Source: Diprion similis | Taxonomy: Eukaryota > Arthropoda > Insecta > Hymenoptera > Diprionidae | Length of the DNA stretch: 64,000 nucleotides | Direction of reading: 5' to 3' | NCBI RefSeq assembly: GCF_021155765.1 | Contig: NC_060114.1 | Span: 7,502,001 to 7,566,000 of the forward strand | Shown here: in pieces, positions 13,170 through 62,400 of the stretch | How positions within the stretch are numbered: position 1 is the stretch's first letter | Layout: each line of letters starts with the position of its first letter | Position numbers and translations under genes: made by a program | Notes under the pieces: model-generated | The model's input: only the letters and a program-made list of their open reading frames with translations | What the model was told of the DNA's origin: nothing | The model's database searches: none

Positions 13170-22981
<9,812 letters not shown>

Positions 22982-27793: not shown

Positions 27794-36257
<8,464 letters not shown>

Positions 36258-38473: not shown

Positions 38474-45227
<6,754 letters not shown>

Positions 45228-48999: not shown

Positions 49000-50045
49000 A
49001 GGTTGTAGAGAGAGGAGCCTTTCTGTTGGGAGGCCAGAGGGATCGTGTTGACCTGGTTAAAGCCATTTACAGAGATGCTTATTTATATTTGCTCGATGAT
49101 CCACTCAATGCTGCTGATAATCCCGTCGCTAATCACTTATCCAAAGTGTATATCCAAACCTTTTTAAAAAACAAGACCCAAGTACTGATTACTCATTAGA
49201 TGCAGTTTCTCCGTCAAGCTAACGCTGCTACTGTCGTCAATCTTGGGAGGAATTTTCGTTGGATTCCTTTACAGAGTATGATTTATATATTAGAAAAGGA
49301 GTTATACAAAGTTTGCTTCATCGCTGGGTATCGTCAAATCTCAGGGGGTGTATGAAGAACTAACCCTTATCCAGGCAACCATGAGATGCTTCAACCCTAA
49401 CTTGACGGGTACAGTACAGCTGAGTACGGTAATGAGACTGGAAATTTCTCAAACACTGATAAGTCGCGATAACACAGGTTGCCGATTCAGTTTCACAAGT
49501 AATTGCAGTGCTGAGACTACTCGAATACACACCCCGGAAGAGACCTTTTGCTATTGACAATCCACCATCGCCCAATTGCCTATAAATGGTACTTTGGTCC
49601 TGAAGAATGTTTCCATGAAATATGCTAAGGACAACCTGCTGGTCCTGAGTGTCTTCGATAGAATTGTATTAAGTACTGTACACACAGCGAGTGCACTGCT
49701 GCGTTAGTTGGAAGATTCGTCATTTCTAAGCTGCTCACTTGTTCCAAATCTAACTTTTTGCTTCAAAGTTACGTGGGGGGGGGGGGGGGGGGGAGGTAGG
49801 GGGGTGGTATAAACCTCGGTGTTGGACAACGCCAGCTAATCTGCTTGGCCAGAGCAATCCTCCAATTCTCAGAGATAGTCGACGGAGTGGAGACCATTTT
49901 TATTAAATGCTGCTACTCTGATCCAAAATACAAATATAAAAAAAAAAAAATACTCTTCCCAAATGGTTCAACTAATCGGGAAGGTGGTGATGGAAGAACT
50001 TTCGAAGATCGCTGAGAAAAGAATTGCACGTCTGCATCGTTCCTA
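49000..50045 (+). pseudogene. Collapsed ABCC4-like pseudogene
   Basis: Remnants of one ABCC gene in correct order but compressed into about 1 kb. At 49000-49250: the NBD1 signature exon (LLGGQ for LSGGQ, YLLDDPLNAAD), with the Gln codon after the H-loop changed to TAG at 49197. At 49362-49410: the end of exon 10 (ATMRCFNPNLTG). At 49420-49655: exon 13. At 49810-49865: the NBD2 signature NLGVGQRQL. At 49905-49930: the start of exon 15. At 49965-50045: part of exon 16. Exons 1-7 and most of the rest are gone, with a 19-base G run at 49775-49793. The HQLQxLRQAxA stretch matches gene E best. Pieces of introns separate the exons, so this is a decayed duplicate rather than a retrocopy. It cannot make a transporter. 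Confidence 0.88.
49775..49793. repeat. Poly-G tract inside the pseudogene
   Basis: Nineteen consecutive G residues between the exon 13 and exon 14 remnants. Such tracts are prone to assembly error, so the exact length is uncertain. Confidence 0.85.
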
Positions 50046-50923: not shown

Positions 50924-57428
<6,505 letters not shown>

Positions 57429-59442: not shown

Positions 59443-62400
59443 ATGGATACGAAGAGAAATCCGAAGGAGACTGCAAATATACTGAACTGGCTATGTTTCG
59501 GGTGAGAACTGCTCAAAGATTTTGAAATAAGAATAAAAAAATAAAATGAAAAAATAGCAATAATAAAAATAATAACAAGTTCGAAATTATTATATTATCT
59601 GTTAGTTTTCTACATAGAGAAAAAGTCCTATCTGGTAGTAGATAATTTTTGCGGATTACAGATGGACATTGCCGATTTTCCGAAAGGGATACAAGCGGGA
59701 CTTGCAGATTGAAGATTTGTACGATCCCCTAAAGTCCAATGAATCGGAAAGCCTCGGTGACCGTCTCGAGAGGTTAAGAAAATTGTATTTCATTGTAACT
59801 TATGATCGGATTACTCGCAGTGTACTCTATTGCAATTTATTATTTGACCCAGAGAATGGAAAAAGGAGTTGGCGAAAAGGCCCAAAAGCCACCCAAGTTT
59901 GTTGCGGGCACTGATCAGAATATTCTGGATGCCATTCATGATCCAAGGAGTGATGTTATTTGTCCAGTTGATGGTGCTGGAAATTATGTTGCGAATGTGC
60001 CAAGGATGGGTGATTAGCTATTTTGATACGGATCAAAATTCTACCACGCAGAACGACGCTCTGCTCAACGTTGGGATTTTGATTTTTATCTCTCTCAGCA
60101 TCGTTTTTATCGAGCATCACAACGATTTGCGTACCCAGGAAATTGGCATGTGCATCAGGATTGCTTGCTGTTCGATGATATACCGAAAGGTAGACGCTTT
60201 TGCTAACATAAACTGACGCTTCTATTTATGAAATTGACAACGAAAAGAACAGCATTTAAATGCATTATCGTAGGTAACATAACCAGTTAAAGGGAGATTT
60301 TGATTTGCATAGCATGTCAGCAGAATTTATAGATAAACAGGAATGGAGTAAATTCACGGTGCATGCTAAAAAGTATATTGTTATCATGATGGTCTTCAGG
60401 TTTTACGCCTCGATCTAGCTGCAACGAGGAATGCAACAGCGGGAAAAGTGGCCAATTTGATAAGTAACGATGTGGCTCGATTCGACACGCTTTTGATATA
60501 CCTCCACTTCATCTGGATCATGCCATTGCAGGTAACACCCTCTAGTATGATTCTGTAAGTCTGCCTACAGGCTGCAACTGCGGACACGATACGTCTACTT
60601 CCACATTTGATTGCAAGTCTGACATCAGAGTTTGCATTATTCCAAATCTTGCATAAGTCTGTTGTCAGGTGACGAAAACTTGCTGTCAGGGAAGATTCTG
60701 TATCGACTTTGTAGAAAGACTTTCCATAGGGTGCAAATTTTTGCAACTGAAGGCAACGCTACTAGGGACTAATTTGAAGTTGTAGTTTCAACTGCACGAT
60801 AAAGTGACTGATTGAAGTATGATTACAGATCTTGTTGATAGGATATGTGATGTGGAAATCGGTGGGTTTCGCAACGTTGGTAGGGATCGGGGTGATGATA
60901 ATCCAAACTTTACCCATTCAAGGGTACTTGACTCAAGTTGCCGCCAAGTTGAGGTCAAGCATCGCAACAAGAACTGACGAAAGGGTACAAGTCATGAGTG
61001 AAATAATTTCTGGAATACAGGTATTATGAAAGTGGACATTGAGGATGACGTAGGTCCCATGTTTTGAACTGGATCTCCGTGATGATATCCTTCGAATAAT
61101 TCACGATGTATTCATAGAGTGAATTTTTACTGCAGGTAGTGAAAATGTACTCATGGGAAAAACCATTCGAGTCGGTTGTATCGAAGGTTAGAGCTCTGGA
61201 GATGAAACTAATCGCTTTTTCAACGTACCTAAGAGGAACGCATCTCGGCATGATGAATTTCTCAGGACCTGTAACAATTTACGCGACAATGGTCACTTTC
61301 GCACTGATGGGGAATTCTTTGACTGCAGAAGTAGTCTTTCCAGTATCCAGTCTATTTCACGCCCTGCAAATGACGTGTGCCATACAGCTTCCGCAAGCAA
61401 TTATCCAGGCTGCTGAAGCTGGTGTGTCTTTGAAAAGACTAACGGTTAGTCCATTCTCTTCGTTCATACATCTTCACGGTTTATTTACGACCAATTCTGA
61501 ATTTTATCCAGGAATTTTTATTGTTGGACGAAGTGAAGAAACTGAAAAATTTTCAAACCATGCCCAAAGATGCGACGCAAGAAAATGAAAATCGTTCAAC
61601 AAATGATGTGTTGGAAAACGTCGACGAAGTTAAACTGGTTAGTGCTATTTTTAGACTGGTACATTTGCGAAGTGTTGTTGTAACTGACACAATTAGTTGC
61701 CTTAGGAACCGTTACTGCGATATAAAAAAAGAGGAACAACAGACATCGAACGTGTCACAAGCGACGAGGTGCAGAATATAGAAAACAAGATAAATGAAAA
61801 GTTCAAGCATGGGATTGGGATTGAAATGGCCAGTGTGATGGCCAATTGGATTAGTGGGCACCAACCGAAAACCTTGTGCGAAGTTTCAATGAAAATAAAG
61901 AGTCGATCACTCGCTATGATTGTGGGCTCTGTTGGCTCCGGAAAGTCATCATTGCTGCATCTCCTGCTAGGCGAGTTGCCGCCCGAGTCTGGACGACTCT
62001 CGTTCTTCACTGACGAAGACAGTGAGAAAACGAGTATCAACAATCGAGATATTCGCATTTCGTACTCTGGCCAAGATCCATGGCTATTCTCTGCCTCCGT
62101 ACGTGACAACATTCTATTCGGGCAGCCGTACGACGAGGAACGCTATCAACAGGTGCAATTACAAAAATCAAATAACTTAACAGAGAAAGTATCCGTGGTC
62201 GTGTCTACCTCACCGAGTTTCATCGTTCTGTTGAACGTTGCAGTACACTAAAAAACGTTAAGGACGTATTTATTTTTACATGCTAATGTTACTGTTTGAG
62301 AGGTAGGAATGACCCCTGAAGTTTACCCCCAATTATCCACTTCATAGGATTTTTCGGTTATGATGTAAGGTGTTTTGATCAAAATAATTCGACATGAATC

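Follow-up and report, generated by a model that had tools for sequence, protein, structure and literature searches.

A probable tandem duplication behind the split TMD1-NBD1 linker of ABCC4-like genes in Diprion similis

In Diprion similis, the TMD1-NBD1 linker of ABCC4-like genes is encoded either by a single exon, exon 7, or by two exons, here called 7a and 7b. The split most probably arose by a tandem duplication across the intron 6/exon 7 boundary, with a cryptic GT inside the exon taken into use as donor, in the common ancestor of eight genes (D to J and O); we put the probability of this reading just under nine in ten. An initial annotation, made from the letters of the window, had described the split as a trait of genes D, E and F. 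It is present in these genes, but appears to go back to one old duplication common to all eight.

The window is the whole stretch of DNA from which the analysis started, 64,000 nucleotides of contig C10 (NC_060114.1; C10:7502001-7566000), and is part of a 269-Mb assembly. Further genomic stretches, namely C10:7482001-7686000 and the locus of gene O on contig C1, were also taken in.

Gene array and linker structure

The window carries a tandem array of ABCC4-like genes, A to F. A search of the genome with exon 7 of gene B returned at least 13 close copies on C10 and at least one on C1 (both lower bounds), together with weaker matches to a pseudogene and to other ABC genes. All 11 queried exons (e3-e8 and e10-e14) were found, in order, in each of 14 genes. 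Along C10, a pseudogene (7484540) is followed by A, B, C, D (minus strand), a gene fragment, E, F, G, H, I and J; a 39-kb interval with zero matches above 35 bits then leads to K, L and M. The array genes fit the ABCC4/MRP4 family in their best solved relatives, which are MRP4, and in the order TMD1-NBD1-TMD2-NBD2. The best PDB matches of exons 4-8 of gene B are all MRP4 (8sx7, 8swn and 8bjf), with an E value of 1e-120 over residues 2-461 of the 463-residue piece. In a comparison of a partial protein with NCBIfam, none of the best 25 of 166 families was at its curated cut-off.

The linker is split in eight of the 14 paralogues (D, E, F, G, H, I and J on C10, and O on C1) and unsplit in A, B, C, K, L and M, as well as in the pseudogene at C10:7484540. 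On C10 the split genes are physically contiguous, with unsplit genes on either flank. Every coordinate and motif reported initially for the split linkers of D, E and F and for the single exons of B and C was recovered in the sequence, including the three quoted donors (Table 1). The end of 7a in E does resemble the NBD1 entry, as had been noted (NGNGTEM, compared with GVGIEM in its 7b and NGVGIEM in B), and the number of residues added to the linker, estimated at 35-43, is borne out. Linkers are 39-46 residues long in the unsplit genes and 71-90 in the split genes.

Exon 7a is a multiple of three nucleotides with phase 0-0 in all eight copies. The first codon of 7b corresponds to that of exon 7 in five of seven copies, and lies two codons downstream of it in D and O. 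Intron 7 measures 68-90 nt in every split gene except I, and intron 6 measures 67-100 nt. In D, E and F, intron 7 is in phase 0 with GT-AG borders, and its retention would shift the reading frame in all three and add an in-frame stop in D and E. Because read-through shifts the frame or meets stops, splicing of intron 7 would be required for an intact protein. In gene J (C10:7616.1-7616.5 kb), the homologous donor site of intron 7 holds GC (ttg/GCAAGT), and alternative GT donors lie at +4 (frame shifted) and +27 (in frame); intron 7 of J would have to be spliced from this GC or from a different donor.

Table 1. Linker exons and adjoining introns in the window. Positions are those of the window; a slash marks the exon-intron border of a donor.
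Feature	Position	Strand	Length (nt)	Description
F intron 6	61445..61511	+	67	GT-AG, phase 0; 3' end and acceptor presumably copied
F exon 7a	61512..61637	+	126	42 aa, ...DEVKL; putative upstream linker copy; against B linker, global z=7.3
F intron 7 (new)	61638..61705	+	68	GT-AG, phase 0, donor CTG/GTTAGT; head against exon profile p=0.39, as by chance
F exon 7b	61706..62152	+	447	Putative downstream linker copy EPLLRYKK...GIGIEM, then NBD1 with Walker A
E intron 6	52431..52511	+	81	
E exon 7a	52512..52640	+	129	43 aa, ends NGNGTEM; end-to-end match to B linker, global z=9.2
E intron 7 (new)	52641..52722	+	82	Donor ATG/GTGAAT; read-through VNFYVK, then stop; head (+7..+21) against exon profile p=0.017
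E exon 7b	52723..53154	+	432	ESLLPKK...GVGIEM, then NBD1; against B linker, global z=8.5
D intron 6	42669..42736	-	68	
D exon 7a	42564..42668	-	105	35 aa; against B linker, global z=7.4
D intron 7 (new)	42493..42563	-	71	Donor ATG/GTAATT; head against exon profile p=0.094
D exon 7b	42061..42492	-	432	Starts LLLDKK; acceptor displaced inward by two codons relative to other copies, same shift in O
B exon 7	18085..18534	+	450	Unsplit, ancestral-type linker exon
C exon 7	31679..32140	+	462	Unsplit, ancestral-type linker exon

Evidence for two copies of one linker

The tests of linkers and introns covered seven split genes, H being left out as near-identical to G in this region. For the family test, columns were permuted with composition and relatedness kept, and the shared head was removed for the comparison of tails. 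With the seven genes pooled, the 7a tails matched the tails of the unsplit linkers at z=8.7 (p=0.001, the floor of 1000 permutations) and the 7b tails at z=6.8, whereas a decoy segment of NBD1 gave z=-1.3. The 7b heads matched the heads of the unsplit linkers (z=2.7, p=0.007) and of 7a (p=0.010). Three decoys, drawn from the tail of 7a or from mid-linker sequence of the unsplit genes, did not match them (p=0.63, 0.12 and 0.31). The z values of the four decoys were -1.3, -0.4, 0.6 and 1.2. Profile comparison with hhalign joined 7a to the unsplit linker with a probability of 97.7 (E 9e-12), but gave only 6% (E 0.0017) when 7a was compared directly with 7b.

The likeness can be followed by eye in E, where KFLLLDEV...KNGRQVVEK...NGNGTEM of 7a aligns with EFLLLDEI...KNGTVYAEK...NGVGIEM of B. 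Second heads are still legible in the 7b of J (ESLLLEKEK) and of D and O (LLLDK[KR]). In single-gene comparisons of 7a with 7b, the global score was significant in E (p=0.0005, the floor of 2000 shuffles), marginal in F (global p=0.0045 but local p=0.11) and not significant in D (global p=0.098), and nucleotide z values of 7a against its own 7b under codon shuffling ranged from 0.6 (O) to 5.3 (J) across the seven genes. The likeness of 7b to 7a proposed for D, E and F therefore holds family-wide but not in each gene (it fails in D), and the homology of the two exons rests on the family, not on single genes. Given the tail match and the match of the 7b heads, the most plausible reading is that 7a and 7b each represent a full copy of the same linker. 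The initial annotation had envisaged a duplication of the exon start with its acceptor, plus a cryptic GT in the first copy; the tandem duplication and the exonic donor are retained here, while the unit is enlarged to the whole linker and the first NBD1 codons.

Source of the new intron

Past its donor, intron 7 of gene I reads gtaagtgttgctgct (VSVAA), where exons typically encode VNVAA, and this intron head equals the exon of G at 12 of 15 positions. Intron heads were scored at +7..+21, beyond the donor consensus, against an exon profile, with 3686 non-coding GT windows as the null. The resulting p values were 0.0005 in I, 0.017 in E, 0.052 in G, 0.094 in D, 0.18 in J, 0.20 in O and 0.39 in F. 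All seven heads lie above the null mean at +7..+21, as do six of seven at +7..+48 (F lies below); a pooled p value would be overstated, because the introns are homologous and are treated as independent. The majority consensus of the heads agrees with the exon at 7 of 15 positions, which is marginal (p=0.047). Fixed-register nucleotide comparisons of the D, E and F heads with exons were mostly non-significant, the best being E against E (p=0.009 over 30 nt), and when intron 7 was aligned locally, with gaps, to its own exon, none of the seven genes gave a significant result. A match noticed by eye in J (aagtggagtgtgag against aactgggtgag) was dropped, as it is unsupported by gapped local alignment. 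An exon-derived intron head appears clear only in gene I, and weaker in the other six.

Against a profile of intron-6 heads, the mean z of the intron-7 heads was -0.71, below the null, compared with 1.53 against the exon profile. The exon-like heads, together with a 7a end that resembles the NBD1 entry, favour a donor derived from exon codons over a copied intron-6 donor. The present donors differ among the paralogues (GTAATT, GTGAAT, GTTAGT, GTGAGT, GTAAGT and perhaps GCAAGT). At the other end, the last 20 nt of intron 7 share 8.6 identities with the gene's own intron 6 and 7.5 with its other introns, which by these counts, rather than by a formal test, is no evident likeness. Since the intron tails show no evident likeness to intron 6, the 5' breakpoint is placed tentatively, by means of the acceptor, whose position is homologous.

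Phylogeny and age of the split

Trees were built from aligned exon matches with the linker excluded and H included; three more distantly related ABCC genes from this genome served to root them. The eight split genes are monophyletic in all four trees, with UFBoot values of 93 (whole), 43 (N-half), 43 (NBD1) and 69 (C-half), and a rerun of the whole protein gave the split clade an SH-aLRT of 99.7 and a UFBoot of 91, with the clade present in 908 of 1000 bootstrap trees. The Fitch count for the split is 1, a value equalled by one of 5000 label shuffles. Among these paralogues of one genome, parsimony asks for one gain, or for four losses if the split were ancestral; the root position among the unsplit genes is poorly supported (UFBoot 36-66). 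None of the outgroups found in this one genome carries the split, be it the six unsplit paralogues, the pseudogene or the distant ABCC genes. Two of the three distant genes are without a linker intron, and the third (C10:9.456 Mb) has one of 145 nt, in phase 1 and at another position, with EKSKNMTDN in the next exon. Patterns made from exon 6 matched 17 and 73 stretches in viral and genome contig collections, respectively, none of them a relative.

The mean 7a-7b score was 11.1 within the same gene and 12.4 between different genes, while between-gene means reached 47.9 for 7a-7a and 28.1 for 7b-7b (D-O pair left out). As a gene's own 7a and 7b are no more alike than those of different genes, and the 7a copies resemble each other strongly, these scores point to one duplication before the genes separated. 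Judged from the same scores, the two halves of the linker appear to have undergone no later homogenisation.

Intron 6, which precedes FLLLDE, is missing from the three more distant ABCC genes (L025, L026 and L027), and may therefore itself be a gain in the lineage of the cluster.

Proposed history and alternative explanations

Since 7a holds a whole linker, the 7b head corresponds to the exon start and exon traces persist past the donor, the duplicated unit would span from the 3' part of intron 6 to the first strand of NBD1. The ancestor would have been an ABCC4-like gene in which a short intron 6 preceded exon 7, and the first part of exon 7 encoded a linker of some 40 residues. A tandem duplication in the common ancestor of D to J and O would have copied, in this order, presumably the 3' part of intron 6, its acceptor, the whole linker and the first NBD1 codons (Glu-Met-Val-Asn-Val-Ala-Ala). 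The second copy would be spliced at the copied intron-6 acceptor, and in the first copy a cryptic donor of the ATG/GTGAAC type, at the Met/Val-Asn codons, would have been taken into use; in several present-day copies the site is GTGAGT, GTAAGT or GTTAGT. The first copy would so have become exon 7a and the second the start of 7b, with a new intron between them whose 5' end was formerly exonic and whose 3' end would be intron-6 sequence that has decayed beyond recognition. The protein would have gained 35-43 residues. The copies would then have decayed unequally, 7a keeping the FLLLDE elbow after TM6 and 7b losing it partly or wholly while retaining the NBD1 entry better in five of seven genes. 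Tandem gene duplication would have multiplied the split gene, with a relative, O, the sister of D, on another contig.

The split could instead be ancestral: a long linker would have been spread over two exons, and A, B, C and the K-L-M group would each have shed the intron together with about 40 residues. The weak root among the unsplit genes leaves some room for this, as does the linker intron in one of the three distant ABCC genes, but that intron is in phase 1 and its following exon is unlike FLLLDE, the other two distant genes have none, and the displayed MRP4 sequences are single-copy. An ancestral split, moreover, costs four losses instead of one gain, and predicts likeness neither of the 7a tail to the NBD1 entry nor of the 7b head to the exon start, both of which are observed; we consider it very improbable. 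Slightly lower still we rate the copying of a complete intron 6 along with the exon start, in which case intron 7 would be an old intron multiplied with its old donor and nothing would have been created. The similar lengths of the two introns (gene I apart) and the gttagt shared by both donors of F agree with such copying. It predicts, however, that 7a should end like exon 6, whereas 7a ends like the NBD1 entry (NGNGTEM and ENGLGDEM, compared with ENGVGIEM), and the intron-7 heads are exon-like and not intron-6-like. Hardly credible, and the least so of these readings, is an origin of 7a and 7b from unrelated events, in which an intron was inserted, sequence expanded on both sides of it and the LLL motifs agree by chance. 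The single-gene tests of D and F are indeed weak, and the linkers are polar (about one third charged and one third polar residues), but the column permutation, which keeps composition and relatedness, rejects this explanation, same-gene decoys do not score, and in five of seven copies the beginning of 7b corresponds to that of exon 7.

Another proposal would add to the duplication rather than replace it, namely that 7a acts as a cassette exon, present in some transcripts and absent from others, so that isoforms with short and long linkers would exist. Skipping would keep the frame in all eight genes, given the length and phase of 7a, and would restore a linker of ancestral length. Most skipped forms would, however, be left without the conserved elbow, because the 7b heads have lost FLLLDE partly or wholly (43% identity, compared with 84% in 7a), and we find a cassette role of 7a unlikely. 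Two further candidates were discarded. Mutually exclusive duplicated exons are ruled out, as 7b has the NBD1 start and Walker A and 7a has neither, and a duplication of AGGT that leaves the protein unchanged is ruled out by the 35-43 added residues.

Relation to known cases

Rogers, in 1989, reportedly described the classic form of intron gain by duplication, in which a duplicated AGGT gives both splice sites and the protein is unchanged. Gao and Lynch, in 2009, and Hellsten, in 2011, are said to have worked on the tandem genomic duplication model of intron gain.

In a review of intron gain, tandem genomic duplication creates a new intron via latent splice sites, and an 'imprecise' form adds coding sequence (Yenerall and Zhou, 2012, PMC3443670); the split of the ABCC4-like linker corresponds to this 'imprecise' form. 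The potato RdRp gene PGSC0003DMG402000361 gained an intron by a tandem genomic duplication that spans a boundary (Ma, Lan and Niu, 2016, PMC4974935). The two cases share a unit that crosses the intron-exon boundary, a parental acceptor that is inherited (presumably so in Diprion similis), a donor supplied by a cryptic GT within what had been exon in the upstream copy, and the insertion of exonic sequence. The potato duplication is recent, with ten nucleotide differences between the copies, and RNA-Seq has shown that its intron is spliced. The Diprion similis split, unlike the potato intron, is old, occurs in eight paralogues and has a decayed intronic half, and its joins are predicted from sequence. 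We conclude that it is a good new case of an already known route of intron creation.

The order TMD1-elbow FLLLDEI-linker-NBD1 is shared with ABCC4/MRP4. The linker of MRP4 is shorter, and the two MRP4 sequences shown among the PDB matches carry one FLLLDEI and no second copy, in contrast to the 71-90-residue linkers of the split genes with their partly decayed second head. The spider mite ABCC gene tetur25g01780 gained an extra intron whose nature is reported as unclear (PMC3724490). Both are cases of an extra intron in an expanded ABCC family, and for the one in Diprion similis a source is identified. Among the literature matches listed, none reports a linker-duplication intron in ABCC genes, and ABCC4 and intron gain occur together only in the spider mite article.

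New introns of identifiable origin are few (PMC4974935). The array offers a natural series in one genome, with six genes in the ancestral single-exon state and eight in the derived split state. It illustrates how a duplication intron may look long after its birth, when the exonic half is legible in one copy and the intronic half is gone, the donors have diverged among paralogues and the coding copies have decayed mainly at opposite ends. This suggests that some introns of unknown source may be old duplications, visible only where many paralogues exist.

Consequences for the protein

Identity of the FLLLDE head to the unsplit genes is 84% in 7a, the same as among the unsplit genes themselves, and 43% in 7b. 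The latter value counts D and O with two missing positions and falls to 39% when these two genes are left out; in both, 7b has retained LLLD, with 77% identity over the five shared positions. As FLLLDE is as conserved in 7a as in the unsplit genes, and less so in 7b, the sequences argue that 7a is normally included. The tail is better kept in 7b than in 7a in five of seven genes, and the reverse holds in D and O.

The dN/dS ratios of 7a are 0.95 (D-O), 0.64 (G-I), 0.41 (J-D), 0.32 (F-G) and 0.22 (I-J), J-E being not computable, and those of the 7b linker are 0.58 (D-O), 0.64 (G-I) and 0.35 (J-E). The two computable pairs of unsplit linkers gave 0.28 (K-L) and 0.25 (L-M), and the NBD1 start gave 0.10-0.25 where computable. 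With synonymous distances near or above 0.8 in most pairs, these ratios show only that the linkers are much less constrained than NBD1.

A function of the longer tether is possible. We propose, as a rather improbable reading, that through the duplication a TMD1-NBD1 tether of twice the length arose at the base of the clade, which then radiated to eight transporters, that the copies split their duties (7a as the post-TM6 elbow, 7b as the NBD1 entry), and that the stretch between them was freed as a variable, possibly regulatory tether or as a skippable cassette for linker length. An AlphaFold2 model of F 7b, made with five window sequences, had a mean pLDDT of 35.5 and was uninformative.

Other features of the cluster

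The pseudogene at the edge of the cluster (C10:7484086-7486320) contains stops. Between D and E lies the remnant of an ABCC4-like gene (window positions 49008-49880, C10:7551008-7551880) with parts of e8, e13 and e14 only. Gene O (C1:11679346-11685622) is split, has all 11 queried exons and is sister to D with a UFBoot of 100; lying on another contig, it may have departed from the C10 array.

G and H (C10:7573016-7579356 and 7585007-7592122) form a tandem pair of mosaic identity. Across exons 7a, 7b and 8, the two genes share a tract of about 1.2 kb at 98-100% identity, whose flanks are at roughly 80-90%; this looks like a recent gene conversion. A second tract of high G/H identity lies at 7573573-7574473.
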